IMG/VR virus record: IMGVR_UViG_3300050120_000231
Span: 1 to 29,419 of that record
Strand: one strand, 5' to 3'
DNA length: 29,419 bases
Source of the DNA: a virus
Shown: piece after piece, positions 5,239-29,419 of the stretch
How positions within the stretch are numbered: position 1 is the first letter of the stretch
How the letters are laid out: each line of letters begins with the position of its first letter
Position numbers and translations under genes: made by a program
Notes under the pieces: generated by a model
What the model was told of the DNA's origin: nothing
Databases searched by the model: none
What the model saw: the letters and a program-made list of their open reading frames with translations, nothing else

Positions 5239-6096
5239 TTAATTTAAGTTATATTTGATCAAAGTTCCATCACGATTAAACGTGGGGTTGAGGAACAGTT
5301 CTATATTTTCTACCAGTTGTTCTTTAGTACGGATATTTATGAAGTCCATTACATTACTCTTCGCGATTATCTTATTCTCTTCCAATAGTTCAGAATATCG
5401 GTAATACTTAGTAGGCCTAACACCTGATTTTGTTGGAGTGGCGAAAAAATCAGCAAACTCTTCAAGATTTTCTAACAAATACGAAGAGCGCTTCACTTCG
5501 AAGTTAAGTTTTGCGTCTTCTCCATACAAGTACAAAGCCATGCGGTCGTAAGCTTCTGCAGCTTGTTCCTCGTATCTAAAGTTCTTGGTATATTTCTTCT
5601 TATTGTGGGTTATTTCACACGTATAGGAATTAATCCCTGACTTCGGTTGATACACACCTACATACTTACGATGATTAGAAGTTTTTCTACCTCTTCTCGC
5701 TTTCGTAGTCGCGGTGTAAAATAACAGCTTGTCTGCTGGTGACCTACCACTATGAAAACGCTTCACACCTTTAGAAATACTCTTACACACCTCGTCATTA
5801 AAAAACTTGATATGGTCGTCCTGCCACAACATGTTGTAACCCTTCAATGGGTTCATTGTGTCCAATTGAGTAATCCATTCCGTCTCTCTTTTAACAAGTT
5901 CTTCCAACGTATCAACATTTTCCAACTCTTCAATTGAAAAATTTTCTACGCCATATTTTCTAAAGGCACGGTACAATGCAAAATTTAATTTACGGTAATT
6001 ACTCACATGTTCTTTCCACCTTTTTTCGATAGAACGAGTCGTGAGCCCGACATAAATTTTACCATTAACTCGATTTTTAATCGCGTATATCTTCAT
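5239..6096 (-). CDS. GIY-YIG homing endonuclease with AP2 DNA-binding domain
   Basis: Mobile endonuclease of the free-standing type. The N-terminal GIY-YIG domain (about 1-92) shows IYA at 3-5, YVG at 15-17, the arginine/histidine pair R26 and H30 (EKRWKEH), a glutamate near E71 before WI, and GYN at 86-88. Together these are the usual active-site elements. Residues 144-199 form an AP2-like domain: KYVGVY, then NSYTCEI and KKYTKNF strands, then the helix EEQAAEAYDRMALYLYG, ending AKLNF. AP2 domains bind DNA and occur in phage and cyanobacterial endonucleases. The C-terminal 85 residues are unassigned. The gene appears AT-richer than its neighbours (about 30-38 % GC in sampled lines). It sits between the RNA ligase and a small gene, with an inverted repeat covering its start. 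The target site cannot be deduced. Confidence 0.9.
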   Translation of the reverse strand: MKIYAIKNRVNGKIYVGLTTRSIEKRWKEHVSNYRKLNFALYRAFRKYGVENFSIEELENVDTLEELVKRETEWITQLDTMNPLKGYNMLWQDDHIKFFNDEVCKSISKGVKRFHSGRSPADKLLFYTATTKARRGRKTSNHRKYVGVYQPKSGINSYTCEITHNKKKYTKNFRYEEQAAEAYDRMALYLYGEDAKLNFEVKRSSYLLENLEEFADFFATPTKSGVRPTKYYRYSELLEENKIIAKSNVMDFINIRTKEQLVENIELFLNPTFNRDGTLIKYNLN

Positions 6097-15227: not shown

Positions 15228-15818
15228 TTACAACATTGGACGCAAAGGGTTGAAAGGAAGCGGGTAGGTAGGTTCAACACCAGTTCTGGGAAGACGACCA
15301 GGCAAACAAGTATCGGCAGAATCCGGATGAGGGCTGGATGGAGTGTAACGAATCCCGATGGGCAAAGTGATGAGCAAAATTGTACGATCTTTGACCCCTG
15401 TTCCACTTCCAATCAATTCACTAGCAATGACGTCCATAAAATATGTTCCGGCAAAAAGATCGGCAGTTACATCTGAAGGAATCCAGATTTGGTACTGACT
15501 GGTGTTGGGTGAGAAATATAACCCGTTATTGAGTATACCTTGCCACAACACTTCGATTGCAAATTCACTCTTCTTCAAAATGCATTTTATATCCCAGCCG
15601 GTGGGTGCGATAAGGGCTCCATCAACGCACAATTGTGCATCGTAAACGATGGTCTCTCCCTGTGAAAACACAGGAACCGGTGGGGTAGCTGGTACAAACG
15701 GAATACCAGGAAATCCAAACTCTGCAATAGGGGATGCTGGAACCGGTTCCGGTACGTTTAATCGAGGACGAAGAATAGTCCTGTTACAACCTGGTTTCTG
15801 GCTAGAAGGTATCTCCAT
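15228..15818 (-). CDS. Small beta-rich virion-type protein, 196 aa
   Basis: Probably a structural or fibre-associated protein. It begins with a proline-rich segment (about 18-50: RLNVPEPVPASP, then FVPATPPVPVF), then a beta sandwich of about 90 residues. The order is VYDAQLCVDG, GWDIKCILKK, EVLWQGILNNGLYF, YQIWIPSDVTADLFAGTYFMDVIA, then a final strand. Similar sandwich proteins, in which a strand pair precedes TxxLxAGxYxxD, are common near phage tail and neck genes. The C-terminus is proline-rich and looks disordered. It is the last gene of the virion block and ends 95 bases before the DUF2059-like gene. A TAGAAT hexamer (15825-15830) ends 6 bases before the ATG, with no SD, so a leaderless start is possible. 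Confidence 0.68.
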   Translation of the reverse strand: MEIPSSQKPGCNRTILRPRLNVPEPVPASPIAEFGFPGIPFVPATPPVPVFSQGETIVYDAQLCVDGALIAPTGWDIKCILKKSEFAIEVLWQGILNNGLYFSPNTSQYQIWIPSDVTADLFAGTYFMDVIASELIGSGTGVKDRTILLITLPIGIRYTPSSPHPDSADTCLPGRLPRTGVEPTYPLPFNPLRPML

Positions 15819-15822
15819 ACTG

Positions 15823-16140
15823 TTATTCTACGCATAGCTGGGTCAGTTTACCATTCAATTTCTGGAACCAACAAACCTTATCCATACCCAAAATGACCCT
15901 AATACTACGCCAATCTTCCACCGTTAGGTTGGCTAGTGCGGATTCAATCTGAGGTCTAGCGTTAGCAAATGAGTTGATTCCACTATGACGGCCCTGGCAT
16001 GTACCGCATGACTTTTTAGGGTTATTGAGGGAATGGGCCAGGCCCCGCAAAGGAGTGAGCCCCGAGATGTCGAGTAACCGAGGGTGATTATCGAGTAGTT
16101 TAGCCATTTGGGCCACACTTGAAATGATAAGTTGTTTCAT
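15823..16140 (-). CDS. Hypothetical protein with one CxxC motif, 105 aa
   Basis: Not recognised. The N-terminus is helical, then TPLRGLAHSLNNPKKSCGTC with C45 and C48, then a helical part (IESALANLTVEDWRSIRVIL) and more cysteines near the end (C90, C103). The single C-x-x-C may bind zinc or form a disulfide. Its ATG overlaps the stop of the fibre paralogue upstream (TAATG), and its stop is 4 bases from the next ATG, so it is locked into the virion operon and is probably a minor virion or assembly protein. Confidence 0.68.
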   Translation of the reverse strand: MKQLIISSVAQMAKLLDNHPRLLDISGLTPLRGLAHSLNNPKKSCGTCQGRHSGINSFANARPQIESALANLTVEDWRSIRVILGMDKVCWFQKLNGKLTQLCVE

Positions 16141-17012
16141 TAGGTTGGTACAGGTTTACAGAGATCACTCATGGCGAAATCGAGTCCTACAAAAATTGAG
16201 TGTGGGTTAGCCAAGACGGAGTTTGAAGCAGCTATGTCAATGGCGTCAATAAAATTGGTAGTGTCTTGTCCGTCGATAATATTTACGTTTAACCCTTGAG
16301 TCAGCGTAAATTTACCAGAACTGTCCGGTCCTACTCCGTTAATAAAGGAGATAATGTGGGTACAATCAGTCAAGGTGGGATCGATAAACTGGTCAGAACA
16401 TTGTAACGGGATACCGTATCCTTGCTCAACAGTCAGATCAATCAATTGACCTCGGACGTTCAACCTAACATTGTAACCCTCGTAGAACGTGATGTCCCCT
16501 GTGAATGTAGACGAAGCCCCTGGTGGGGTCAACGGAAGCGAGGGCCGATACACCGGCACTACATCTGTACCAGATATATACTCTGGGGCTACCGTAACCT
16601 GAGTCACCCCTTCCCACATATTACTAATTTCGTAGACCAATGAGGGTTCCACCTGTAAGGTGGTGAATATATGGGTACCAGACGGTACGTTAAGAATATC
16701 CTGTCCTATGACCAAGAAGCTTCCATTCGAGATTCTACCAGTGTAGAAAGGAAACTGAATAGTAGTCTTGTCCGATACCGTGAACACATTGGACCCCGTG
16801 AATGTAAAGGTGACTGCGTTACCCGACACCAAAATAGATAGCAGCTGTACCATATCGGTCAGAGGATATCCAGGAATGTAGAGGTTGAGATCGAGCAACA
16901 AGTTTGTGGTAAGGACATAACCCAAGTTAGATGTTCTACTACTGTTTTCTTGTAGCGGATACATTCTTCGACCATTTTCTGTGGTCCAATCAATAATTTG
17001 ACTCTGTGCCAT
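16140..17012 (-). CDS. Tail-appendage paralogue 1, 290 aa
   Basis: First (by coordinate) of five tandem paralogues. The N-terminal module is DWTTENGRRMYPLQENSS followed by LLLDLNLYIPG and a beta-rich stretch. The middle part has TGDITFYEGYNVRLNV and GYGIPLQC, a glycine and cysteine context repeated in paralogues 3-5. Near residue 222 it reads ISFINGVGPDSSGKFTL, a motif also present in paralogues 4 and 5. The protein is almost all beta strand, with no signal peptide, as expected for a fibre or baseplate-attached part. The start overlaps nothing upstream (gap of 1 base) and lacks an SD. The specific role (receptor binding or structural) is unknown. Confidence 0.75.
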   Translation of the reverse strand: MAQSQIIDWTTENGRRMYPLQENSSRTSNLGYVLTTNLLLDLNLYIPGYPLTDMVQLLSILVSGNAVTFTFTGSNVFTVSDKTTIQFPFYTGRISNGSFLVIGQDILNVPSGTHIFTTLQVEPSLVYEISNMWEGVTQVTVAPEYISGTDVVPVYRPSLPLTPPGASSTFTGDITFYEGYNVRLNVRGQLIDLTVEQGYGIPLQCSDQFIDPTLTDCTHIISFINGVGPDSSGKFTLTQGLNVNIIDGQDTTNFIDAIDIAASNSVLANPHSIFVGLDFAMSDLCKPVPT

Positions 17013-17013
17013 A

Positions 17014-17736
17014 TTAAGAAGACATCGTTGTTGCTATGGAATCGGCCGCTACTGAAGTGTTTCCCACGAGACTGATACTAAGCCCTCCACCGCCCTGAGT
17101 CGATACCTTGATAATGTCATTGCTACCCAGAAAGATATTGTTGTCTACGGGTGCCACCAAATTCAGAAGTTTGAGCGCAGGAGATGGAGGAGCATCTGGA
17201 AGCTTGAAGTGTCCCACACCGTTGAAGGCAATCCAGTTATCTGATGGATTCGTTGTAAAAAACATACTGTCCATCGATGGATCACCCAGCAATTCAATCG
17301 TTCCAAATCTGCCCTGTAGTGAAAATAATCCCGCCGTGGACGGAACCGATCTTACCACAGATGGTATAAATGGAACTCCAAAAGTCAGAAGCTGGCTCAC
17401 CTTGTTGTTCCAAAGGTCAACCACACCATCGCCAAAAACAATTCGACCAAGATAACGTTTATTGTAGCTGTTTAGGTTATCGTAGATCGATACATGTCGA
17501 ACGCCAGCTGTATAGCTAGACTGTAAATACGTGAATGACAAAGTGAGCAAATCAAACTGGATCGTGATCGTCAAATCAGTAGCAGACACCAAAATAGATT
17601 GTAGTACGGGGACAAAGCCATCAAATTGTATGAGTGTTGCGTCTACAATCAAATTATTAATAACACTGGTGTTGGGCTGAAGAGGGTAGTGAGTCCTTCC
17701 AAGTTCGTTTTGATAAGATAAAATGCCGGTTACCAT
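17014..17736 (-). CDS. Tail-appendage paralogue 2, 240 aa
   Basis: Second paralogue. The N-terminal module is LSYQNELGRTHYPLQPNTS, then VDATLIQFDGFVPVLQSILVS, where the QSILVS segment matches LLSILVS of paralogue 1. Paralogues 1 and 2 are therefore probably the closest pair. The later part is beta-rich with PPSPALKLLNLVAPVDNNIFLGSND near residues 180-205 and a glycine/serine-rich end. It lacks the ING-V-x-PD motif. It has one of the few good SD sequences in the block (AAAGGGA about 8 bases before the ATG), preceded by a 58-base gap, so translation is started independently here. Confidence 0.74.
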   Translation of the reverse strand: MVTGILSYQNELGRTHYPLQPNTSVINNLIVDATLIQFDGFVPVLQSILVSATDLTITIQFDLLTLSFTYLQSSYTAGVRHVSIYDNLNSYNKRYLGRIVFGDGVVDLWNNKVSQLLTFGVPFIPSVVRSVPSTAGLFSLQGRFGTIELLGDPSMDSMFFTTNPSDNWIAFNGVGHFKLPDAPPSPALKLLNLVAPVDNNIFLGSNDIIKVSTQGGGGLSISLVGNTSVAADSIATTMSS

Positions 17737-17794
17737 GGTCTATCCCTTTGTTTGTGGTCTTCGTAACACAGTGGTTCAACATCTTTTCGCATAG

Positions 17795-19069
17795 TTAACT
17801 CTCGGTGATGTTGTAGAACATGGTAATCATAAGGGTAGGGCTACCGCTAGTGGAAGCTGTATCAACATAGAATTTAGATGACGGTACAAAGGCGCTATCC
17901 GCAGTAGGAACCAGAACAATACCTTCCGATGTAATTGTCCTGGTATTAGGTGCAATTGATGTTGAATCAACCAAGAAGTTGGCCTGTATAGAGCCTGTAG
18001 AAGTCTGGAACCGGATTCTGGAAATAGCTGCGGCCTGTCCAGACAATAGCAGCGGGGTATCCACGGAAGGATCAAAAATTGTATGACTGCCGTTCGACGG
18101 GTTGGTGAGGGTTGCTACGTAAGTCAAAATATACGACGGCCATACCTTGTATTCAGACGCCGTGGCTTCCAAAAAGTCAACTACTGGAGTCTGGGATTTC
18201 GTAAAGTAAGCCAAATCTCCAACAAAACTATCTGCAGCCCTATTAATCAAAAAGTTGGGATTGACTGGTGGTAACTTTTGCGTTTGGTCGCTGCAGAGCA
18301 TCGGCAAATCCAAGTTAGGAGTCATAATGTTTATAGCTCCATCGGTACTATCCTGGATAAACGTAATAGGGTCCACTCCAAACAGGTAAATGTTACTATC
18401 ATTCGCAATTGTAGCGTCATGAGGATACGGAGTTGCGTTATTGATCTGCAGAATCTCTGGAGTAGGGCAATTCCTAAACTCGGAAGAAAAATCAGCTAGG
18501 CTCAATATGGAAGAATTATCTTGCACCGTAAAATTGAATACGTTCGTAGGAGCTGCCGTAGAGGTTTCCACAACGTTAATCAGATTCCCAAAATTAACGT
18601 TACCAGTCAGAATAATATTAGACAAAATTAAACTAGTGACAGGAGGTCGAACATAACAAAACACGACAGAAGGCTCCAGGACTGCATCGGTATAAGCTAA
18701 TGAGTAGAATCCTACGTAATTACTGATATTGGTCACACCACCAAACACCATGTAACCGTCAGCGCCAGGTACAAATGCCGTCAGCCTGACAGCCTGAAAA
18801 TCCTGTGTAATCTGTGCCGAAAAAGTTCCAATTACAACAGAGTCATCCGATTCAGCGTCATAATGCTGAACCGTCACTGACACATAACCATTTCGAAGAG
18901 TGGCCTGAGAAACAAATAGATTGCTCGTGGCCAGCTGAGTAGTTAGTGAAACCGATGCAATCAAATCATTTGGCAACTCAAGCCCATTATTTGACAATAA
19001 GCTAGTCCCTTGTTGAAAGGGATAACGGCGATACAGGTTTTTGTTAAGAAAATCGAGATTTGAGGCCAC
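17795..19069 (-). CDS. Tail-appendage paralogue 3, 424 aa
   Basis: Third paralogue. The N-terminal module is LDFLNKNLYRRYPFQQGTS, followed by LELPNDLIASVSL and the paired strands typical of the group. In the middle, LTGNVNFGNLINVVET matches the TGDITF and QGNVTI segments of paralogues 1 and 5, and LPMLCSDQTQK matches LQCSDQFID of paralogue 1. The C-terminal 150 residues are beta-rich with no recognised domain; they could be a knob or receptor-binding tip. It starts with GTG and has no SD. A 38-base gap separates it from paralogue 4. Confidence 0.75.
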   Translation of the reverse strand: MASNLDFLNKNLYRRYPFQQGTSLLSNNGLELPNDLIASVSLTTQLATSNLFVSQATLRNGYVSVTVQHYDAESDDSVVIGTFSAQITQDFQAVRLTAFVPGADGYMVFGGVTNISNYVGFYSLAYTDAVLEPSVVFCYVRPPVTSLILSNIILTGNVNFGNLINVVETSTAAPTNVFNFTVQDNSSILSLADFSSEFRNCPTPEILQINNATPYPHDATIANDSNIYLFGVDPITFIQDSTDGAINIMTPNLDLPMLCSDQTQKLPPVNPNFLINRAADSFVGDLAYFTKSQTPVVDFLEATASEYKVWPSYILTYVATLTNPSNGSHTIFDPSVDTPLLLSGQAAAISRIRFQTSTGSIQANFLVDSTSIAPNTRTITSEGIVLVPTADSAFVPSSKFYVDTASTSGSPTLMITMFYNITES

Positions 19070-19107
19070 GTATTACAATTCCATACAATGTCACATTAGT
19101 CAAGAGG

Positions 19108-22100
19108 TCACGGAATCATAAACGATAGTGCCTGTGTCCCTGTTCCAGCTCCGTTAGTAGCCGTTACAGTGCATGATGTAGTACCTGAAGCGGCGATACC
19201 AGTTATGATACCTGTTGAAGTATCTAGGCTCGCCCAACTTGGTAATCCGGTTGAGCCATAACCTGTGGGGGTATTGGACGCAACTAATTGGAATGAAAGC
19301 GATTGACCATTTGTACCCGTAGCTACTGGCGAACTCACAATAACTGGAGGCTCTTGGTTGACAGTAATCGTCAACGTCATGGTTCCTGCCCCTATCGCGT
19401 TGGTTGCAGTCAGCAATACCGAAGAGCTTCCGAACCCTGAAGGAATTCCATAAATCTGCCCCGACGAGGTATCGAGGTACAGCCCAGTTGGCAACGTACC
19501 AGAGCTGTAGCTTGTGGGATAGTTAGAGGCTATGATCTGATAGGAACTTGATAATCCTTGATTAAACGTGACTGTAGAAGCACTTGTTATCACCGGAGCT
19601 ACAGTTGCGGAAATTGACAACGATAATAGTTGGGTATCATAACCAAAAGCGTTAGTGGCCGTGATGTCAAAGCTGTATACCCCGATGGTTGATACAGACC
19701 CAGAAATATGACCAGTGGCTGCGTCCAGGACAAGTCCTACAGGAAGTGTGCCGGTGGAAAAACTTGTGGGATCATTAGTGGCCGTAATGTTGTAACCCAC
19801 TGAACCTCCTTGAGAAAAAGATACACTCAAGGAACTGGTTATAACCGGTGAAGACGATCCTACCGTTAAGGTCAACGTTTCAGGCCCAGTACCTGCCGTA
19901 TTAGTCGCACCTAGCGTCACTGAAAATACGCCAGACTCAGATGCTATCCCACTGATCACCCCAGTAAAGGTATCAACATTAAGATTGGTTGGTAAGCCAC
20001 TGGCTGAAAAGCTGGACGGAGAATGTGCTGCAGTGATGGTGTAACTAAAGAATGCACCTTCCGCTACAGCCGCAGTGTTAGGGCTCGTGATAACTGGAGC
20101 GATCAATGAAGTGGTCAGCACTAGCGTCTCGGTATCGGTTCCTGCCCCATTAGACGCCGATATCAAAATATCAGTAACTCCATGAGTTGTCGGCACCCCG
20201 CTGATTACTCCCGTAGAAGAATTCAATGTCAACCCTGTAGGTAATCCCGATACACCATAACGCGTAGGGTGTTGGGAGGCGGTAATGGTGTAGGTGAATG
20301 AATCACCCTGGGTTGCTATGGTCGTTAATGAACTGGTGATCGATGGGGCAATCAAAGAAGCAACGATATCAATCGTAATAGTCTCGGTGTCAGAGCCTGC
20401 AGCATTTGTTGCAGTAACAGCCGTCGAATAATTTGTAACCGTTGTAGGAACACCGCTGAGCACTCCTGTAGCCGTATCGATAGTTACACCAGCAGGCAAA
20501 CTTGTTGCACTCCAACTTGTAGGAGAATTTGTGGCAGACACCTGGTAGAAGAAAAACACCCCTACACCACCTGAAACGGTTTCAGGTGTGATTACAGGAA
20601 CGGCCACCACCTTAACAAGCATGTTAAACTGTGTCGTAGCAGTTGAAGTCAAAATATTTGAAGTAATCAAATAGTTGGTGGATGTAGATTCGGTCGGTGT
20701 TCCCGACAAATTATAGGTAGCTGGAGGTATCGCCGTGTCTACAGTCATCCAGGAAGGTAATGTGGTGGTATCGTAGACTACCAACGCAGTAGTGTATCCA
20801 GGTATGTTGTAAATGAACGGTGTTCCCGACAACGCTACTAATGTGACTGTATCGTTATCGGTCGAATCACAATCCGTGCTTTCCACCGCAATCGTCTGTC
20901 TTCCACCTACAGTCACGTCGTTAATCAAAGAAGGGGATATGGCACCAGGCCAATCCCGATTGACAGTTACCCCAATGGTTCCACTAATCATACCACAAGG
21001 CACAAACAAAATTATTTCAACAACAGCGGTTTCTTTACAATTCAAAGTTCCGGATAGTGAGTTAAGGATAACGCCATCACCATAGCGAATCTTAGTAGTG
21101 TTAGGGATAATCTCTACTGTTCCTGAAAGAGCCAAATCTACCTCGTAGGTAATGGTGTCACCCGTTGGGTTGGCGATGCCGATACTTATCGGGACAAAAG
21201 TTCCATATTCTCCTAACTCGTTCGTACCCTCCATGGTATTGTAACGGATAATACTGTATGGAATCACAAGACCTTCAACGCTGGTGTTGTAAGCTACGAT
21301 AGTATCATTGAGAGTATTGTAGATACCTTCGTCAGCTATCAAAAAAGTAGCAGAACCTGATCCTATCAAAGCGTCAGCGACAATAATGTCAGAGTCATCC
21401 AACACCTCCACAATTGTAGTGACCTGAGTTGATCCAGAGTATTGAATCGTGATCGTCTTGCCTTCATGAAAATACTTTATGAATCCTGATTGGCCTGAAA
21501 GTGTTGATGTAAACAAAGTCGCAGCAATCGTAGTAGCGGCTGACGTGGCAGTAAAATCCCCTGATGTGTGGTCAGATTCCACAGCTGCTCCATAAAGCTC
21601 GAACATACCATCTTGAACACGCGCCATGTAATCGGCGAAAGCGTTCATATTAACAGGAGCGCACTTCGCTTGATAGTTGTTTTGAACCAAGAATGAATGT
21701 CCCACAGATAGCGCAGCAAATGTATTAGGGGACTGGTACGGAATCGAAAAAGGCGTATATGCAGTAAGAACATCGGCGTATAAAGTCAAATCAGCTTCAC
21801 TCAACAATGTTACGGAATAGCTGTCGTCAAACTGCAAAGCGATATTACCATTACTGTCGGGAACACGTCCATTCAGTGTAGCCAGTTTAGTCGAATCCAG
21901 TTCCGGACAACTGGTATACAGTCCTTTTCCTGCGCGAGGAATAACACCAAGTGAAAGTCCTGCAGCCAGCACTGCGTCGATATTGGCTCCAGGAATCAAA
22001 TTCACCGTAGTGCCTGCCTCGAAAGTATGAGCCGTAACAATTGGATAATTATTGTTAACTACCAGGGATTTAACTGTAGGACTATAAGGTGTTATTACTG

Positions 22101-22509
22101 TAGGAGAAAATTCCGTTTCAACCACAGTGTAGGTTGTATCAAAACTGGTAGAGATCAATCCTGTAACACCAGGTCCAAACTCCATTTTCAAGGAATAATT
22201 TGCGGATGAACTGCTTACAAAACTATGAGAAGTGTTGCCAATACAATCTACCGCATCAGCAGCTGCCACTACCAAAGTTGCTGTCAAGGTTGAATTGTCG
22301 GGGTTAGTAAAATAGAACGTAATCGAAGTATTTGCCACGGAAACGATTCGGCTAATAAATAGTCTCTTAACCGTACCTACCAAATCTACGAATTGAAAAT
22401 CAACCAGGTCGGCAGGCCACAATTGCGGAGATGCAATTACTTCACGACCCTCCAGAAACGGGTAGGAAATCCTCGAATTGAGTGTTTGGTATTCTAATGT
22501 AGTTGCCAT
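19108..22509 (-). CDS. Tail-appendage paralogue 4 with Ig-like repeat stalk, 1133 aa
   Basis: Largest member of the paralogue set. Residues 1-60 carry the shared module (LEYQTLNSRISYPFLEGRE, LWPADLVDF). Near 205-227 it has GLYTSCPELD and LNGRVPDSNGNIALQF, the second shared motif. Residues of about 325-400 hold a small beta module (TSGDFTATSAATTIAAT to GSATFLIAD) that resembles one in the 733-aa protein. From about 638 to the end there are six Ig-like units of 80-84 residues of the putative-Ig (He_PIG) type, each with P-x-I-T, a G-x-x-x-x-Y turn, SxLPxGLxLDxxTGxIxG and T-A-x-N-x-x-G. A degenerate seventh is at about 555-637. Such repeats form stalks or bind surface sugars. It has no SD. Confidence 0.85.
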   Translation of the reverse strand: MATTLEYQTLNSRISYPFLEGREVIASPQLWPADLVDFQFVDLVGTVKRLFISRIVSVANTSITFYFTNPDNSTLTATLVVAAADAVDCIGNTSHSFVSSSSANYSLKMEFGPGVTGLISTSFDTTYTVVETEFSPTVITPYSPTVKSLVVNNNYPIVTAHTFEAGTTVNLIPGANIDAVLAAGLSLGVIPRAGKGLYTSCPELDSTKLATLNGRVPDSNGNIALQFDDSYSVTLLSEADLTLYADVLTAYTPFSIPYQSPNTFAALSVGHSFLVQNNYQAKCAPVNMNAFADYMARVQDGMFELYGAAVESDHTSGDFTATSAATTIAATLFTSTLSGQSGFIKYFHEGKTITIQYSGSTQVTTIVEVLDDSDIIVADALIGSGSATFLIADEGIYNTLNDTIVAYNTSVEGLVIPYSIIRYNTMEGTNELGEYGTFVPISIGIANPTGDTITYEVDLALSGTVEIIPNTTKIRYGDGVILNSLSGTLNCKETAVVEIILFVPCGMISGTIGVTVNRDWPGAISPSLINDVTVGGRQTIAVESTDCDSTDNDTVTLVALSGTPFIYNIPGYTTALVVYDTTTLPSWMTVDTAIPPATYNLSGTPTESTSTNYLITSNILTSTATTQFNMLVKVVAVPVITPETVSGGVGVFFFYQVSATNSPTSWSATSLPAGVTIDTATGVLSGVPTTVTNYSTAVTATNAAGSDTETITIDIVASLIAPSITSSLTTIATQGDSFTYTITASQHPTRYGVSGLPTGLTLNSSTGVISGVPTTHGVTDILISASNGAGTDTETLVLTTSLIAPVITSPNTAAVAEGAFFSYTITAAHSPSSFSASGLPTNLNVDTFTGVISGIASESGVFSVTLGATNTAGTGPETLTLTVGSSSPVITSSLSVSFSQGGSVGYNITATNDPTSFSTGTLPVGLVLDAATGHISGSVSTIGVYSFDITATNAFGYDTQLLSLSISATVAPVITSASTVTFNQGLSSSYQIIASNYPTSYSSGTLPTGLYLDTSSGQIYGIPSGFGSSSVLLTATNAIGAGTMTLTITVNQEPPVIVSSPVATGTNGQSLSFQLVASNTPTGYGSTGLPSWASLDTSTGIITGIAASGTTSCTVTATNGAGTGTQALSFMIP
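19111..20598 (-). repeat. Six tandem Ig-like domain repeats (about 83 residues each)
   Basis: Units start at residues of about 638, 720, 803, 887, 971 and 1054 of the 1133-aa protein. The conserved skeleton is LP-x-G-L-x-x-D-x-x-T-G-x-I-x-G followed by T-A-T-N-x-x-G. The unit length is nearly constant, but residues differ enough that the array arose by old duplication rather than recent copying. The protein ends inside or right at the end of the last unit, so no separate tip domain follows. Confidence 0.85.
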
Positions 22510-22515
22510 CGTGAT

Positions 22516-23409
22516 CTAGCATGAACAGTTCGCGGATGCATTAATAGTTGAAAGAATTGAATTCTGCTGGCTATCAAGCCACTGATAGTAGCTTCTTAAA
22601 TCGCCAAGATTGTCTTCCAACTGGGTTAGTCTTGCTGTCAATGTAGCCAAGTCTTCACAACCCGAGCATGGGACGCAGCAGGTGTCTGAAATTGAAATTG
22701 TTGCAGCCGATGAAGTTGATACTCCGGTGCAACCCGTACCCAAGATAGATATGTTGCCGTTGCCGTCAGGAGTTACACCATTAATTCTAGTGATGTAATT
22801 TATCTCTTGGCACTGGGTATTTAATCCCAGACCTTGACCAGCATCCAATGTTAAGGTGTTGGAACCCGAATCGTAGGTAAAGCTTAAATTGGTCCTGGCA
22901 ATGATAGTAACGTTACCCTGCAGAGTCTGAGTGACTCCGGTGTCATCAATAAACGTAATAGACGAAACGCCTTGCACCGCTGCGATGATCGTTCTGGACA
23001 ATAGTTCAGCAGTAGTCAATGTAAAACTGTACGAACCTGTGGGAGATCGTTGCATACCCTGTAGGCTTCCAACCGTGAGCTTACCGGTAGCAACCTGATA
23101 AGAGCCGGTAGATGTAACCAACGGAATGACTTGATACTCGGTAAACGAACCTGCCTGTACCGTGAATGTTCCCACCACCACGCTGGCTTGATCCGAGATA
23201 GTCACCACAACAGACGTCAACCGATTGACTATTGTGGATACATAATAGCGGTTACCTACGGCAGAACCTGTCGCAATCGACAAGTCTACCATAAAGTCAT
23301 TAGGTATGACAAATTGACCTGATTGATCCAGCCTCGTAAGCCCATCTCGAATCGGATAACTTCTCAGCGAGTTCTGATTCAGCCACTCCAAGCTCTCGAT
23401 TTGTGGCAT
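22516..23409 (-). CDS. Tail-appendage paralogue 5 with C-terminal coiled coil, 297 aa
   Basis: Fifth paralogue and the first one transcribed. The N-terminal module is LEWLNQNSLRSYPIRDGLT, then FVIPNDFMVDLSIA and strands VVVTISDQASVVVGTFTV (close to VVIGTFSAQI in paralogue 3). LQGNVTIIARTNLSFTY, GQGLGLNTQC and ITRINGVTPDGNGNISIL are the other shared segments. After a cysteine cluster (CCVPCSGC, near 242-249) there is a short coiled coil (about 252-275, LATLTARLTQLEDNLGDLRS), ending ANCSC. The coiled coil suggests oligomerisation, probably trimers. It starts 4 bases after the stop of the 733-aa gene in an AT-rich leader with no SD. Confidence 0.78.
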   Translation of the reverse strand: MPQIESLEWLNQNSLRSYPIRDGLTRLDQSGQFVIPNDFMVDLSIATGSAVGNRYYVSTIVNRLTSVVVTISDQASVVVGTFTVQAGSFTEYQVIPLVTSTGSYQVATGKLTVGSLQGMQRSPTGSYSFTLTTAELLSRTIIAAVQGVSSITFIDDTGVTQTLQGNVTIIARTNLSFTYDSGSNTLTLDAGQGLGLNTQCQEINYITRINGVTPDGNGNISILGTGCTGVSTSSAATISISDTCCVPCSGCEDLATLTARLTQLEDNLGDLRSYYQWLDSQQNSILSTINASANCSC

Positions 23410-23413
23410 AAAT

Positions 23414-25615
23414 TTAAATCAAAGACCAATACGTAGCGAGAACTCCGATATCACCAGAATATAAGTTCGATCCAGAGAAATCGCGAGTCAACAAAAAGTT
23501 GACAATGCTGTCTTCTCCGATATTGGCTGCAGGTATGGCTAAAGAAGTCGATTGAAATTTAAGTGCTTGTTGGGCCAGATATCCAGAAGGCAACGCAAAA
23601 TTGACTACTCCGACAACTGTGTCGTTGGGAAGCACTGCACCAGCTACAGTTGTATTAGCTGCAACCACCGAAGCAGGTGCCAATCCATTCAATACGGTGC
23701 TGACGTTATAGGACAGATTGAATCCAACATTAACGTTAACCGAGGCTACATTCGATAAACCAATAACATGAAGAACAATATACAGCGTCTTTCCATATGG
23801 AAATGATTTAGGCAAAACAATCTTACCAGTCAAACCATAATCAATAGGTAGAGCGCTGTAAGGCAACCGAATATAGCTGTGAAGACTTCCCCCCAAATTA
23901 ACTAACTCGGCATTCCGAGGCGTGACATCGTAACACATCCCGGACACACCCTGAGACTGGTAGCTCACCAAAAATTGACCTGAACCCACTGGTGATTCCG
24001 TGACCAAAATACCAGACGCAGGTGCTCCTGTAATTGACGAAACCACCGGAACGGTGGTTCTGGTCCACACACCAGCAACAGGATCAAATACCATCGATCC
24101 TAAAGCTTTATTGCCTGAAACAGCGACTACATCAGCGTTGAAAGACTGGTTGAATTTGAGGAACAAGTCTCCAACACTAGCAGGTAGACCAGTGTTCTTA
24201 TCGACAAACGTAATAGACGGAGTCGAGTTATTTGTTGATCCGTCGTTGAATGGGGCCAACGAAGTAATGAAGACCTGATTAAAAGCTGGGTTGAACCTAA
24301 CGAACTGTAGAAAAATACGGGCTCGCTCACCGTCAGATACTACGGTTGTCATCCAGTCAGAAGGAGTCCAGTCTGAAACTAGGTCTGCGGCCCACGGCTG
24401 AGTACCTGTTTGATCGTTGTACCACCAAATACCGTAGTTATCAATAGAATAAATGCCATCTGTAGCGTCTACATTTCTAAAAATCTGTTCAACGCCATTG
24501 ACTGTCAAAGTGTTGAAATCGGCAGGGCTAGGAGGGATAAGTGCAGCCAATTCGGTAGCTTCAGCCTGTTCGTAAGGAAACAAACTACCAATAGAATAAT
24601 GTAACCCGGTTCCTGTCGCAACAGTGTGACTCAACACAATACTAGTGGCAGAATTAACTGTCTCGATGGTATAGGTTCCACGAGAAGCAATAACAATTGA
24701 AACCCCCGCCATTCCAGCTCCAAAGTTCGCAGATGAAGATGTAAATGTGGTGGAACCATTGGCTACGCCATCTGTTCCGGAGTTATCAGCGTTGTCAGTT
24801 GTGTAGTCGGATGGAACATTATAAAGGAATTTGGCACCGGGGGGTACCGTGATCGCTGCGATGGCGGATGGGTTATTAGACTGAAGCCAAGTAATATCGA
24901 CCCAACCCAGCCGAGTCATATCAGAGTTCGGTATTGTCCAAGTTGTACTGGTCAACACAGGAGCTGCTGTAGGGCGATCCAAGACGTTGAAGCGATAGTT
25001 CTGGAACAGGGCTGAAAGCTGATCCACGTTCGGACACAGCAAAAACTCAGTCGGACTAATACCATAACCAACCAACACCGCCAATCCACCAGGATTTGCC
25101 GTGACCTTACCGGGTGTAATCTGAGAAAGATAGTACGGTCCTACTCGAAAAGTCTCAGTGACTCCTACTGAAACAGGCTGAAGCAGTCCATTGGTAGGGT
25201 CATCAACACGGAACGGAAGCTTGATCAGCCCCTCCAACCAAATATCTGCATTCCCTGTAGTGGACACGTTGGACACAATACCGAAAGTGTATGACGAGTT
25301 TGCTGCGGTGAATGTGGTGGTGGCGGGGTCAGTGACAAACCCCACGACAGCACGCTTTAGTCCGGTACCGGTATTGTCGCTGGCGAAGTAAACTGCGTTA
25401 AGCGAACCAGAAACAATCTGGGTGATTTCAGTGGGGTGTATAGGTTGAGCAAAAGCTGTCAGCACAGACAAATCCACGGCATTCTGAAATTGGTCGTAGA
25501 GATATTGTTCACGAGCGATCAACTGTGCGAGAATCGGATTAACGACCGATGCACTTACTGGGGTTCCATCCTTGACGAGTGAAACCTGCGGGACCCAATT
25601 AGTTGTAGTTGCCAT
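23414..25615 (-). CDS. Large baseplate/tail-fibre virion protein, 733 aa
   Basis: Structural protein, beta-rich throughout. The N-terminus, WVPQVSLVKDGTPVSASVVNPILAQLIAREQYLYDQF, has the look of a virion-attachment segment seen in phage fibre proteins (a G-x-P-V-x-A-x-x-x-N strand followed by a helix with R-x-x-Y-L). Residues of about 278-345 carry a beta module (GSTTFTSSSANFGAGMAG to GLHYSIGS) of a kind common in phage adhesins, and similar to part of paralogue 4. The C-terminal 200 residues (SYIRLPYSALPIDYGL onwards) look like a jelly-roll-like tip. It sits between the 194-aa virion gene and the paralogue array. There is no SD. It could be a baseplate hub or wedge or the main fibre; I cannot decide. 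Confidence 0.75.
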   Translation of the reverse strand: MATTTNWVPQVSLVKDGTPVSASVVNPILAQLIAREQYLYDQFQNAVDLSVLTAFAQPIHPTEITQIVSGSLNAVYFASDNTGTGLKRAVVGFVTDPATTTFTAANSSYTFGIVSNVSTTGNADIWLEGLIKLPFRVDDPTNGLLQPVSVGVTETFRVGPYYLSQITPGKVTANPGGLAVLVGYGISPTEFLLCPNVDQLSALFQNYRFNVLDRPTAAPVLTSTTWTIPNSDMTRLGWVDITWLQSNNPSAIAAITVPPGAKFLYNVPSDYTTDNADNSGTDGVANGSTTFTSSSANFGAGMAGVSIVIASRGTYTIETVNSATSIVLSHTVATGTGLHYSIGSLFPYEQAEATELAALIPPSPADFNTLTVNGVEQIFRNVDATDGIYSIDNYGIWWYNDQTGTQPWAADLVSDWTPSDWMTTVVSDGERARIFLQFVRFNPAFNQVFITSLAPFNDGSTNNSTPSITFVDKNTGLPASVGDLFLKFNQSFNADVVAVSGNKALGSMVFDPVAGVWTRTTVPVVSSITGAPASGILVTESPVGSGQFLVSYQSQGVSGMCYDVTPRNAELVNLGGSLHSYIRLPYSALPIDYGLTGKIVLPKSFPYGKTLYIVLHVIGLSNVASVNVNVGFNLSYNVSTVLNGLAPASVVAANTTVAGAVLPNDTVVGVVNFALPSGYLAQQALKFQSTSLAIPAANIGEDSIVNFLLTRDFSGSNLYSGDIGVLATYWSLI

Positions 25616-25616
25616 A

Positions 25617-26201
25617 TTACGATACTGTGAGGAATTTAATACCCCAAGAGATAGCTAGGGCGTAAGAAGAATCGTATTCAATTTGGTTAAAGTTAATACG
25701 GGCGTACGGGATGTCGTCATTCGGATTGCTGGTCGGAGTCGCCACCAAAGCCAACTCATAAAGGTTGCTGGTTCCACTCGTGAAATCGTTTCCGTAAAAG
25801 GAAGTGGCCGAGGCAATGATGGTGGAGAAAATGACTGTGTTGTTTATGTACCCGGAATCCGACAAAAAGCTTGGAGGGAATGACAACGGAAGTCGGAGAT
25901 ATCCAAATCCTGCCGCCACACTGAGCTGATTAAATGGCTGGCTGTAAGCAACATCTATAGTTGGATACGTGAAAGAATCGTTATTATTGAAGCCGATGTA
26001 AAAAGAGCTAATTCCACTACCTGAAGCACCAGAAAGTAGACGGGCCAGCAGACCTGCCCCCAAGTTCAGAATGGTATTATCTTTGTCGAGCACAAGAATC
26101 TTCTCACCAGTGACCTTGTGCACTTTCCAAATCTTAACGAACCCTCTGAGTTTAGCTGTGTATGTTTCCTGGGGGAGAGCAATTTCAGATTTCATAATCA
26201 T
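25617..26201 (-). CDS. Virion protein (baseplate/tail type), 194 aa
   Basis: Small structural protein. The segment GFVKIWKVHKVTGEKILVLDKDNTILNLGAGLLARLLSG at 20-58, followed by a beta part with SSFYIGFNN, matches a common layout of phage tail-region proteins: a strand, then N-x-I-x-N-x-G-x-x-L-L-A, then y-x-x-G. The rest is beta-rich, ending ARINFNQIEYDSSYALAISWGIKF. Two ATGs (26201 and 26195) are possible; the first is kept. A sigma70-like promoter ends 5 bases before it and there is no SD. Confidence 0.75.
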   Translation of the reverse strand: MIMKSEIALPQETYTAKLRGFVKIWKVHKVTGEKILVLDKDNTILNLGAGLLARLLSGASGSGISSFYIGFNNNDSFTYPTIDVAYSQPFNQLSVAAGFGYLRLPLSFPPSFLSDSGYINNTVIFSTIIASATSFYGNDFTSGTSNLYELALVATPTSNPNDDIPYARINFNQIEYDSSYALAISWGIKFLTVS

Positions 26202-26206
26202 TTTTT

Positions 26207-26235
26207 AGTATAACGGTAGCTTTAAGAGAAGTCCA
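26207..26235 (-). promoter_or_regulatory. Possible promoter upstream of the 194-aa virion gene
   Basis: On the minus strand: TGGACT (26230-26235, 4 of 6 to consensus), a 17-base spacer, TATACT (26207-26212, 5 of 6). The -10 ends 5 bases before the ATG at 26201, so the transcript would be leaderless or nearly so. The -35 lies across the end of the upstream gene. Confidence 0.4.
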
Positions 26236-28006
26236 TGATGTTTAAGGTTCTAACCGTGCGAGTTGTAGCCCCTGTAGGGATGTGTGTCAACACCTTAGCA
26301 GCCTTCACCAACGCCTGTCCAGAATCTACCGCGTTAAGATTCACCACGTCAAAATTTGAAGAGTCCGTCAGCGGTTCTCCATCTTTCAAAGGAGCCTTTG
26401 CTACCACAAACAACCGAGTAGGTAAGTCTTTAAAGTAGTACGGGGCCTCATTGGCCATAAACCCGTCGGAATCCGATCCGTCCGAATTGAACGGTACGTT
26501 GCCTAGTCCTGGAATAATTATGCAGTCGTTCAACTGATTGTATACATCTACCGCAAAATTAAGCGTAACTTGCTGCATCAAAAATACATGCGGAGGCAAC
26601 AAAGGTTTGAGCAGTTCCATGTAGGTCAAAACCTGTGATGTCACGTCGGCGTCAGGAAGATTCACATACAATAGTGCCATATTATCGTTGAAGAAATTCT
26701 GAAACAACCACTGGGTCGGTATGATGGGGACCGCCGATTTATTCAAAGCAGGATTCGACGAAGTTGTCAGACCGAATCCGGCCAAAATGGCCGGTAAATT
26801 GGCCGGATCGTTGAGCATGGCGTTGAAAGTCGCTACGTCCTTTGAAGAACCCTCGACCGGGAAAGCCAGGACTCCGTCAGCAGATAAAGTCACCAACTCC
26901 AGGGTGTTGCTAAAGGTTAGCTGGAATTGATACGAGCCGAGGAAGATATTGGAAGAGAACGGTACTACGGGCCAACCGGAAAACACCTTCTCCCACCAAC
27001 GAGGCAACACTGAGCTGTCGTAATATTGAATAGCATCGACTAGGACATCTCCAGTCTGGACAACTGCCCCCACTACTGTGGTGGGCAAAAAATTAAGAGC
27101 CAGATCAAATCGGTACACGTGTGAGTCGGTGACCACGAGTTTGGAAAACTTGTCCTGGTAGATGTTCTGGATCGTCTCGGATGGCTCGATAACTACCGGT
27201 ATTCCTGCAAACGCTGCCACCAAAGATTTCAACCGGGAAGGAGTCGCTCCCCCTACACTCAACCCCATCAATGATTGCATGATCTGGGCAGACTGTTGAG
27301 TGGATGGTAGCGTCAGATTGTAAAGGTAGCCAAAATTATTGGTAACATTTTGGTTGTCTTCCTGGAGATGGTAACACCACAAAATCATGAATCTGTCTTG
27401 TACGGTATTGCCGCTGGAGTCTTGAAAAGTTGCGGGTATCCCTTCAGGATTAATGATCGGGTAGGTGGGGGTGGTCGGGTTGCCGAACGGGTTAGTGTTA
27501 AAATACAGCACCGATTCTTGGAGTGTAACATCAACATTATTGACGTACACCACCGATGGAGCTATGACGCGGTTTGCGATCACTGAGAACTCAGCGAAAG
27601 TTGCTGGTACATCTACTGTCCAGACATTTTGGGTAGGTGACTTCGTCCCTCCGAACTGGAACACTGCAGAAGCGTAGAATGGATCGGTTGTAGGTTGTGC
27701 ACCGAATACGGTACCGGAAGGCTGGAAAGTGAGTGGACTCGCATTCAGGTCAGACAGCTTCACCACCAATGGATACCAACGTTCCTTATCCAGAATCGGG
27801 ATGTTATTGACTCCAAAGCTATTGACCGTATCGACAAGCTGACAGTAAGTCTGGGTAAGCTCCTCAGCCAACCCGAGACAATACCCTGTAACAGTAGCCT
27901 TCTCGTTGAAGACCATATTCCAAAAACTACCCAACGAAGCCTGCAGAACATTAGGGTCCGTAGCTCCACCGGTAGGATACTGGTAGATTGGATAATCGTT
28001 AGCCAT
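26222..28006 (-). CDS. Baseplate-associated virion protein, 594 aa
   Basis: Probable baseplate or tail-end structural protein, called mainly from position directly after the baseplate J-like gene and from its size. The N-terminus (FWNMVFNEKATVTGYCLGLAEEL) is helical, and a mixed alpha/beta region with many aromatic residues follows. Around 505-540 there is a polar loop (NSDGSDSDGFMANEAPYYFK). No enzymatic motif, signal peptide or repeat is visible. Its ATG overlaps the stop of the J-like gene (TAATG), so it depends on that gene for translation; its own stop is 20 bases from the next ATG. Confidence 0.75.
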   Translation of the reverse strand: MANDYPIYQYPTGGATDPNVLQASLGSFWNMVFNEKATVTGYCLGLAEELTQTYCQLVDTVNSFGVNNIPILDKERWYPLVVKLSDLNASPLTFQPSGTVFGAQPTTDPFYASAVFQFGGTKSPTQNVWTVDVPATFAEFSVIANRVIAPSVVYVNNVDVTLQESVLYFNTNPFGNPTTPTYPIINPEGIPATFQDSSGNTVQDRFMILWCYHLQEDNQNVTNNFGYLYNLTLPSTQQSAQIMQSLMGLSVGGATPSRLKSLVAAFAGIPVVIEPSETIQNIYQDKFSKLVVTDSHVYRFDLALNFLPTTVVGAVVQTGDVLVDAIQYYDSSVLPRWWEKVFSGWPVVPFSSNIFLGSYQFQLTFSNTLELVTLSADGVLAFPVEGSSKDVATFNAMLNDPANLPAILAGFGLTTSSNPALNKSAVPIIPTQWLFQNFFNDNMALLYVNLPDADVTSQVLTYMELLKPLLPPHVFLMQQVTLNFAVDVYNQLNDCIIIPGLGNVPFNSDGSDSDGFMANEAPYYFKDLPTRLFVVAKAPLKDGEPLTDSSNFDVVNLNAVDSGQALVKAAKVLTHIPTGATTRTVRTLNIMDFS

Positions 28007-29419
28007 TAGATTAGTGATATCCCTATATTGTCAACCGAGTTACCAGATAGGTCTTGCCCTAGATAATCAATAAAATAGAGAGTAGTATTCGAAGTGACAC
28101 CATCCGGTAGGCTCGAAGGAATTGTCAGGACGTCGCCACTCGAAATAGAGATCGTTGAGCCAGATAACGTGTAGATCAAGCCGGTCATAGTGATTGGTAG
28201 ATCGACTCGTTTGATCGGATAATTATGGCATATTTCAACAATCTTGGATGCGTAAAGACTTTCACCAAACGGTATCGTATTAATGTAGTTAAAAATATCC
28301 TGCTTCATTGCAGCGATACCAATCGACTCAGCCGTGTCGGTGACGTTCTGTTTAAATAGTGCGAGATTCAACGAGACAAAACATGGCAATGCTGCACGTA
28401 CTAGGTAGTCACCACAGAGAATACGGTCTTCACCATCCTGAAACATCTGCTGGATATCCCTAATGTTTGGTTGATACGTCAACGTCACGTCCATGCTTAC
28501 AGTCGAACCTATCGATACCACTGCAGGTTCGGTGTACTGGAACGTTACAACCGCTGTCTGGTAAGAAGAGAACCTGGCGTCAGCAGCATTATCAACCGTG
28601 TTGTTGGCGTTAAATTGGTTCTGATCGTATCCGTACTCCACAGAATTGATCACCAACGTACCGGCTGTAGTGATGTTGTTCACCGGAGTCGGGAGCAGTG
28701 AGGCGATCTGGTAAAACCCAGGAGCGTCAATAGCTGCCATATTCAATTGCCAAATACCTGTAAAAATCTTGATAGCCGTTTTCTGCACCACGAGCTGCTC
28801 TACTGCTACAGCAGTCCTTACATAAACATCAGCTTTTCCAAAAGTGGATGTACCTACAAAATTGCGCCTGGAACGAACCATCTCAGCGTCATTCGCACCC
28901 ACAGCTGACAACGTCTGGAATGCCGGAAAGTCTTGCGCCAACACTGCAGCCATAGCCCTGGGCGAAGTCAGTGACAGATTGGTAATATTAGTCTTCATCT
29001 TCGCAATCAATTGTTTATCAGTATCCTGAGGCAACCCTGTTGTAAAGGCCCCATAAGCCTGTATCTGAACAACATTTGTGATATTCGATGATGAAACCAA
29101 TGAGAATGACGACCCACTTGAAACCTGATACTGAGACCCTACAGCCGCAGCCACTATGGGAATCAAAAAGTAATAAGTGGTACCGTCGAACAGTAAAGGA
29201 AGTTCCGAGTTACTGCCAGGTACACCGGTCACCACAGTATAGGCCTGGGCCGTCACATACTGCAGGTTCAGAGCAGGCTGTATGAAAGCCGTACCAGACG
29301 GCATCGTGTAACCGCGATTTCCAACCGCCACTGTAACCTTCAAGATACCAGTAGATAGTTTGCCTTGGTAACGAGTCGTCAAAAAATTTGATGCTACTTC
29401 ATCGATTGCTGGGATGTAA
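28006..29419 (-). CDS. Baseplate J-like protein, 5' end outside the window
   Basis: Large baseplate wedge-type protein (gpJ family layout). A TTG at 29382 can serve as a start, but the frame continues upstream to the window edge (reading Y-I-P-A-I-D-E-V-A-S-N-F-L before TTRYQGKL), so the gene is cut off and its true start is outside. The visible part has the YTMPSGTAFI strand near the start, a helical stretch (QLIAKMKTNI, then SPRAMAAVLAQDFP) and a series of beta segments. It ends with the helix-strand region AMKQDIFNYINTIPFGESLYASKIVEI, which is typical of the C-terminal domain of J-like proteins (an INTIPFGE-like turn). It is coupled to the next gene. Confidence 0.8.
   Translation of the reverse strand, partial: YIPAIDEVASNFLTTRYQGKLSTGILKVTVAVGNRGYTMPSGTAFIQPALNLQYVTAQAYTVVTGVPGSNSELPLLFDGTTYYFLIPIVAAAVGSQYQVSSGSSFSLVSSSNITNVVQIQAYGAFTTGLPQDTDKQLIAKMKTNITNLSLTSPRAMAAVLAQDFPAFQTLSAVGANDAEMVRSRRNFVGTSTFGKADVYVRTAVAVEQLVVQKTAIKIFTGIWQLNMAAIDAPGFYQIASLLPTPVNNITTAGTLVINSVEYGYDQNQFNANNTVDNAADARFSSYQTAVVTFQYTEPAVVSIGSTVSMDVTLTYQPNIRDIQQMFQDGEDRILCGDYLVRAALPCFVSLNLALFKQNVTDTAESIGIAAMKQDIFNYINTIPFGESLYASKIVEICHNYPIKRVDLPITMTGLIYTLSGSTISISSGDVLTIPSSLPDGVTSNTTLYFIDYLGQDLSGNSVDNIGISLI

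Follow-up and report, generated by a model that had tools for sequence, protein, structure and literature searches.

Five tandem paralogous genes beside the baseplate genes of an uncultured phage

Introduction

Duplicated appendage genes are known in phages, but are usually few, exchangeable, or recognizable only by fold. The Ackermannviridae (e.g. CBA120 and S117) encode a branched complex of four tailspike proteins (TSP1-4, with XD and TD domains). All four bind receptors; their conserved N-terminal domains assemble on the baseplate, their C-terminal parts vary, and XD linking domains are confined to TSP2 and TSP4 (PMC11414711, PMC8825819). In phage T4, the baseplate and short-fiber proteins gp10, gp11, and gp12 are thought to derive from one primordial fold (PMC3004832). 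Here, we describe five tandem genes, P1-P5, that lie on the minus strand of a 29,419-base IMG/VR virus record (IMGVR_UViG_3300050120_000231, analyzed over this whole length and referred to as the window), downstream of a baseplate J-like gene.

The array is similar to the Ackermannviridae tailspikes in comprising several proteins with a conserved N-terminal part and with variable C-terminal ends, but here all five share the whole core and three have no variable part. It differs from gp10, gp11, and gp12 – three proteins whose kinship is evident from structure superposition – in having five members with kinship visible in sequence, and no sequence relation between these T4 proteins and P1-P5 was detected. 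Adhesin-like tail fibers with He_PIG or fn3 domains (phrog_8763) resemble the variable tail of P2 but not the shared core. The set is of exactly five, and its order and positional identity survive divergence of the terminases to about 29% identity; how phages build multi-part attachment devices, and which of the parts may vary, becomes testable by sequence. The reading that we favor, as probable though well short of certain, is that P1-P5 are homologous, non-interchangeable subunits of one baseplate host-attachment apparatus of a myovirus-like phage, with P2, and perhaps P3, acting as adhesins and P1, P4, and P5 as structural parts.

Results and Discussion

P1-P5 share a core of about 220 residues

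The original prediction, made from the sequence of the window, proposed five tandem paralogous tail-appendage genes at this locus. Its coordinates and sizes are correct, the genes being minus-strand open reading frames (ORFs) of 297, 1133, 424, 240, and 290 amino acids for P1 to P5, and the paralogy also stands. Single-sequence BLASTP links P1 with P3 (1e-9), P5 (6e-6), and P2 (1e-4), and P4 with P5 (2e-4). In a 300-shuffle control, the real score was never reached for P1-P2, P1-P3, P1-P5, P2-P3, P3-P5, or P4-P5, and was reached twice for P2-P5; scores of P4 against P1, P2, and P3 are within noise. Comparison of orthologue profiles with hhalign gives significant similarity for P1-P3 (2.7e-20), P1-P5 (2.6e-15), P1-P2 (2.3e-12), P4-P5 (3.8e-10), P2-P5 (4.4e-8), P3-P5 (3.6e-7), and P1-P4 (1.9e-5). 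P2-P3 (0.003) and P3-P4 (0.09) are non-significant alone, and the five are therefore linked as a connected set and not pair by pair. Control families built from the neighboring genes J, T2, T3, T4 (a gene of the window, not the phage), and D2 scored 0.003 or worse against P1-P5, and hhalign ruled out T4 or D2 as a sixth member. By these comparisons, P1-P5 are true paralogues.

The shared module had been placed in N-terminal residues 1-70, which is too short: the homology spans about 220 residues (P1 5-233 with P3 3-240; P1 6-238 with P5 6-253), a unit covering nearly all of P1, P4, and P5. This core is made up of an N-terminal YP segment, a small beta-sandwich, and a beta-rich GDV..G.N...G.GL...C segment, with ING..PD..GN in most; a second block common to most members runs from GDV..G.N through G.GL....C to ING..PD..GN. 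An ING..PD..GN motif had been reported in paralogues 1, 4, and 5 of the original numbering (P5, P2, and P1), and a GxGxxxxC segment in these three and in paralogue 3; both are present as described. The motif proposed for the start of all five proteins, aromatic-x3-N-x3-R-x2-YP, matches 0/5 as written, and its corrected spacing is aromatic-x3-N-x2-(R)-x-YP-(F/L/I/V). Relaxed to [WYF]-x3-[NL]-x(1-4)-[YF]P[FLIV], the motif occurs in all five proteins and in none of the other ORFs of at least 80 residues in the window; its chance rate is 0.0014 per random 30-mer. Among 70 family members the P is invariant and is preceded by Y (65) or F (5); the N is kept in 57/70, the R in 44/70, and the downstream D of the LPxDL-like strand in 61/70.

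The prediction knew of no name for this module, and by our searches the five-paralogue family has none in Pfam, PHROGs, or the PDB. P1, P3, P4, and P5 have no significant Pfam or PHROG match, and P2 matches only via its immunoglobulin (Ig) repeats. Searches of all PDB chain sequences (hmmsearch) with profiles of P1, the P2 head, P4, and P5 gave no convincing match, and detected no similarity to the solved gp10 and TSP4-N chains. Because the family has no Pfam or PHROGs entry, related genes in environmental phage genomes have probably been left as hypothetical proteins.

The number and order of the genes are constant among relatives

Terminase identity to the window is only 25-26% even for the nearest cultured phages, which are Salmonella phage Arash and Vibrio phages D69, D148, and D181. 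The likeness includes a baseplate J homologue (gp13 of Arash, annotated as a structural protein), but searches of two of these genomes in full, Arash and D69, detected no member of the five-gene family. Scanning with an alignment of three terminases brought up 47 IMG/VR loci, the majority of them 49-54% identical; scans of viral contigs with single P1, P3, T2, or terminase sequences found nothing, and an alignment of four of the paralogues contained no region sufficiently conserved to serve for scanning a collection. A paralogue profile matched 17 of 26 searched records, including contigs of up to 204 kb, and 0/6 Arash-like records. Scans with P5 and P1 added the two relatives closest to the window (L105 and L107) and distant ones (L130-L134), and a genome scan with the P1 cysteine pattern as query added contigs L157 and L158, binned with Methylococcales and Phycisphaerales metagenome-assembled genomes, respectively; these host assignments may be binning errors.

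Eleven distinct close relatives have an identical order, J-T2-T3-T4-P1-P2-P3-P4-P5, and where the fetched stretch extends that far the array is followed by D2 and often by D1. In a census with near-identical records counted once, all 21 distinct complete arrays, which come from uncultured phages, have exactly five members in an unchanged order. Most of these sequences helped to build the census profiles; in the seven arrays outside profile building (G006, G008, G010, G011, G013, G016, and G017), 35/35 genes were assigned to the expected position. The only array with three members (G020) is on a contig whose end cuts into an open-ended ORF, at least 3625 codons long, at the place of P2. The distant set consists of seven arrays and comes from searches favoring detectable relatives, which may have overlooked arrays with more or fewer genes.

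A maximum-likelihood tree of 70 proteins from 14 phages, with 35 of the proteins from distant phages, groups them by position and not by genome: it has four position changes, the minimum, and the shuffled mean is 42.9. Support is 91/83 for position 2, 94/85 for position 4, 93/84 for position 5, and 72/93 for position 1. An independent five-gene expansion in the distant phages was rejected, with p = 0.004 in the approximately unbiased (AU) test for a tree that keeps the 35 distant proteins together in a single clade. Profiles built from close relatives alone recognize positions 1 and 5 in 5/5 distant arrays, and positions 2-4 more weakly. A terminase was found in four distant carriers, with 29-32% identity to that of the window. 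From the grouping by position, the rejected clade, and the terminase divergence, it follows that the duplications most likely predate the split of these phages.

Variable ends are confined to P2 and P3

Close orthologues of P1 are 292-301 residues long and 39-45% identical (23-29% for distant ones), those of P4 are 237-262 residues, and those of P5 are 283-324 residues, apart from a subgroup (L127, L128, and L129) with a P5 of 385 residues, some 50-100 longer than in the other close relatives when these are taken as spanning 283-335 residues. All three are conserved to their ends across relatives, the last segment of P1 having a mean identity of 71%; their near-fixed length and full-length conservation make P1, P4, and P5 look like structural parts rather than variable receptor binders. 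P2 orthologues range from 786 to 4062 residues, of which the first ~530 are 28-32% identical in all orthologues. In the window, the P2 tail matches PF05345 (He_PIG; 2.1e-47, 159.9 bits against a gathering cut-off of 24, in six stretches) and phrog_8763 (tail protein; 1.2e-48); in relatives it contains varying sets of He_PIG, fn3, CarboxypepD_reg, and NHL domains. P3 orthologues have 345-826 residues, with conservation reaching residue ~320. Variable ends are thus confined to P2 (beyond ~530) and P3 (beyond ~320), and the proposal that the C-termini of all five differ holds for these two and fails for P1, P4, and P5. On this split, the host-specific part of these uncultured phages is likely to be P2 and perhaps P3. 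Near-identical phage pairs were compared to ask whether P2 changes first: two pairs at 100% are uninformative, the pair at 99.2% aligned in one piece, and a further pair (L127/L128) is at 91%.

Some relatives carry additional long genes near the array. Giant genes lie between P2 and P3 in L094/L095 (G011), L089/L090 (G001), and L102 (G010); they encode 1689, 1773, and 3616 amino acids, with an open stretch of 1600 codons in G010, and are fn3-like by eye. The family module was not detected in these inserts. On the Phycisphaerales-binned contig, a long open frame after P5 (L158:12873-17108; 1412 amino acids to the record end) has GPPGPP-type repeats that suggest a collagen-like fiber, and the matching place in L157 is taken by a gene rich in serine and proline.

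Predicted structures and the P1 cysteines

An AlphaFold2 model of P1 (12 sequences; mean predicted local distance difference test score [pLDDT] 54.5) has a beta-sandwich at residues ~30-130 and a helix at 254-292, with pLDDT ~60-91 over residues 21-130. The P5 model (28 sequences) has a mean pLDDT of 70.1, and 79-97 over residues 21-120. Although built from separate alignments, the two N-terminal domains have an identical order of strands (39-46, 55-63, 66-73, 75-85, and 99-113, then a short helix and a strand), in agreement with the common fold that the prediction of a shared module implied. In Foldseek searches with P1 (PDB) and P5 (PDB and BFVD), nothing matched at E <= 0.001, the best E values being 0.18-0.19. 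The best VIA-align Z scores, 4.9 (P1) and 4.4 (P5), are within background; these comparisons also bear on the XD fold (the XD2/XD3 beta-jellyroll) of T4 gp10-like and Ackermannviridae TSP proteins. A weak or absent match is no sign of a new fold.

P1 carries D-x-C-x3-C-x2-C just before its predicted long helix, and C200, C227, C244, C248, and C251 are invariant in 25 divergent orthologues. A metal site is one possibility for the cluster and disulfide bonding within an oligomer another; the modeled C-terminal helix no more than hints at oligomers.

A proposed apparatus and its alternatives

Under the reading that we favor, one ancestral appendage gene would have been duplicated into P1-P5 before the phage group diverged, and it is most likely through the core that each protein is fixed to an adjoining baseplate protein or to another of the five. 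P2 would be a long adhesive fiber, its constant head bearing a variable Ig/fn3 mosaic as the part that probably contacts the host, and P3 a second, less variable adhesin; P1, with its cysteine cluster and likely coiled coil, P4, and P5 would be constant structural parts. The presence of P1-P5 in the virion, their oligomeric state, contacts, and receptor binding we infer from gene position and domain content. A stronger version, in which the set is an obligatory five-paralogue baseplate attachment machine fixed before the phages diverged, with a core undescribed in the open-licence literature and perhaps locked together by the P1 cysteine cluster, is offered tentatively, and we would put it at somewhat below an even chance.

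The original prediction saw instead a common docking domain that mounts several different fibers or receptor-binding proteins on one baseplate; taken as a generic dock for five independent receptor-binding proteins with different receptors, this scheme would provide host-range flexibility. A common homologous module is indeed present, as the profile comparison with hhalign demonstrates, the ends of P2 and P3 are variable and partly adhesin-like, and such a strategy exists in the Ackermannviridae tailspikes (PMC11414711); P1, P4, and P5, however, have no C-terminal domain that varies and stay conserved right up to the C-terminus, and a constant number and order in 21 arrays is unlike exchangeable receptor binders. 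Copy number and order that are invariant over deep divergence suggest a single defined complex, or else a separate site for each of the five, more than they do a generic dock, and we regard the docking scheme as unlikely. It is a little less likely still that the five form one hetero-oligomeric branched fiber through the shared core, with one member contacting the baseplate as in the Ackermannviridae TSP complex. The fixed five-member set and order and the position-specific conservation fit such a fiber, and TSP4 and TSP2 of CBA120-type phages interact through related XD2 domains (PMC11414711, PMC8825819); but the profiles found no match among the solved gp10 or TSP4-N chains, and proteins of common ancestry need not touch one another. 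That P1-P5 are not tail appendages, and rather decorate the neck, head, or sheath or act only in assembly, seems very improbable: functional family matches are limited to the Ig repeats of P2, and Ig repeats are also found on phage heads and sheaths, but in close and distant phages alike the array stands in strict synteny, immediately behind baseplate J and T2-T4.

Several observations count against the apparatus of five distinct subunits. Position 3 is not resolved as a single clade in the tree (support 34/0), and the orthology of positions 2-4 in distant phages rests on that tree, single profiles being ambiguous. The middle region of P1 is poorly predicted, as the low mean pLDDT reflects. 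No cultured carrier of the family was found, and tblastn of window P1 and P3, P1 and P5 of one close relative, and three distant P1s found no significant relative in 50,697 phage records. The giant inserts between P2 and P3, having no module, may mean that adhesins are mounted in another way too.

Neighboring genes and other features of the window

The array and the tail genes are all on the minus strand, in the right-to-left order J, T2, T3, T4, P1, P2, P3, P4, P5, D1, D2 (Table 1). By family, J is a baseplate wedge protein: among 11 orthologues scanned, six match PF04865 (Baseplate_J; best 3.5e-7) and five match phrog_6 (baseplate wedge subunit; best 1.4e-15). The window copy alone, with its N-terminus cut off, has no match in Pfam and PHROGs scans. 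The orthologues are 534-553 residues long and the window J aligns from residue ~83, so that ~83 N-terminal residues are missing and the listed TTG start is not the real one.

Table 1. Positions in the window of P1-P5, their parts, and adjacent genes
Feature	Position	Strand	Description and basis
J, baseplate J-like protein	28006..29382	minus	PF04865 and phrog_6 matches among orthologues; cut by window end
T2, 594 aa	26222..28006	minus	Conserved syntenic gene following baseplate J
T3, 194 aa	25617..26201	minus	phrog_5417, 8.8e-5; conserved synteny
T4, 733 aa	23414..25615	minus	Conserved syntenic tail gene directly upstream of array; non-homologous to P1-P5 (hhalign)
P1 (position 1), 297 aa	22516..23409	minus	ORF; shared ~230-aa core, conserved Cys motif, C-terminal helix
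P1 N-terminal module, residues 1-130	23020..23409	minus	YP motif and predicted beta-sandwich (AlphaFold2)
P1 Cys cluster, C244-C245-x2-C248-x2-C251	22657..22680	minus	Orthologue alignments
P1 C-terminal long helix, residues 254-292	22534..22650	minus	Likely coiled coil; predicted model
P2 (position 2), 1133 aa	19108..22509	minus	ORF; likely long adhesive fiber
P2 constant head, residues 1-540	20890..22509	minus	Includes shared ~230-aa core; orthologue identity, hhalign to P1 2.3e-12
P2 variable tail, from residue 622	19111..20646	minus	He_PIG Ig-like repeats; PF05345, phrog_8763
P3 (position 3), 424 aa	17795..19069	minus	GTG start; core ~1-320, variable C-terminal end
P4 (position 4), 240 aa	17014..17736	minus	Most divergent member; hhalign to P5 3.8e-10
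P5 (position 5), 290 aa	16140..17012	minus	ORF, orthologues, structure model
D1, 105 aa	15823..16140	minus	Small conserved gene beyond array
D2, 196 aa	15228..15818	minus	Conserved gene beyond array; homology to P1-P5 not detected

A clear Shine-Dalgarno sequence is absent from the 25 bases upstream of all 11 tail genes (J-D2, 15228-29382), whose leaders are mostly A/T-rich, and the host may initiate translation without one. Elsewhere in the window, the ORF at 5239-6096 was judged by eye to be GIY-YIG homing endonuclease-like, and the ORF at 1742-3232, adjoining the terminase, may be another endonuclease-like gene.

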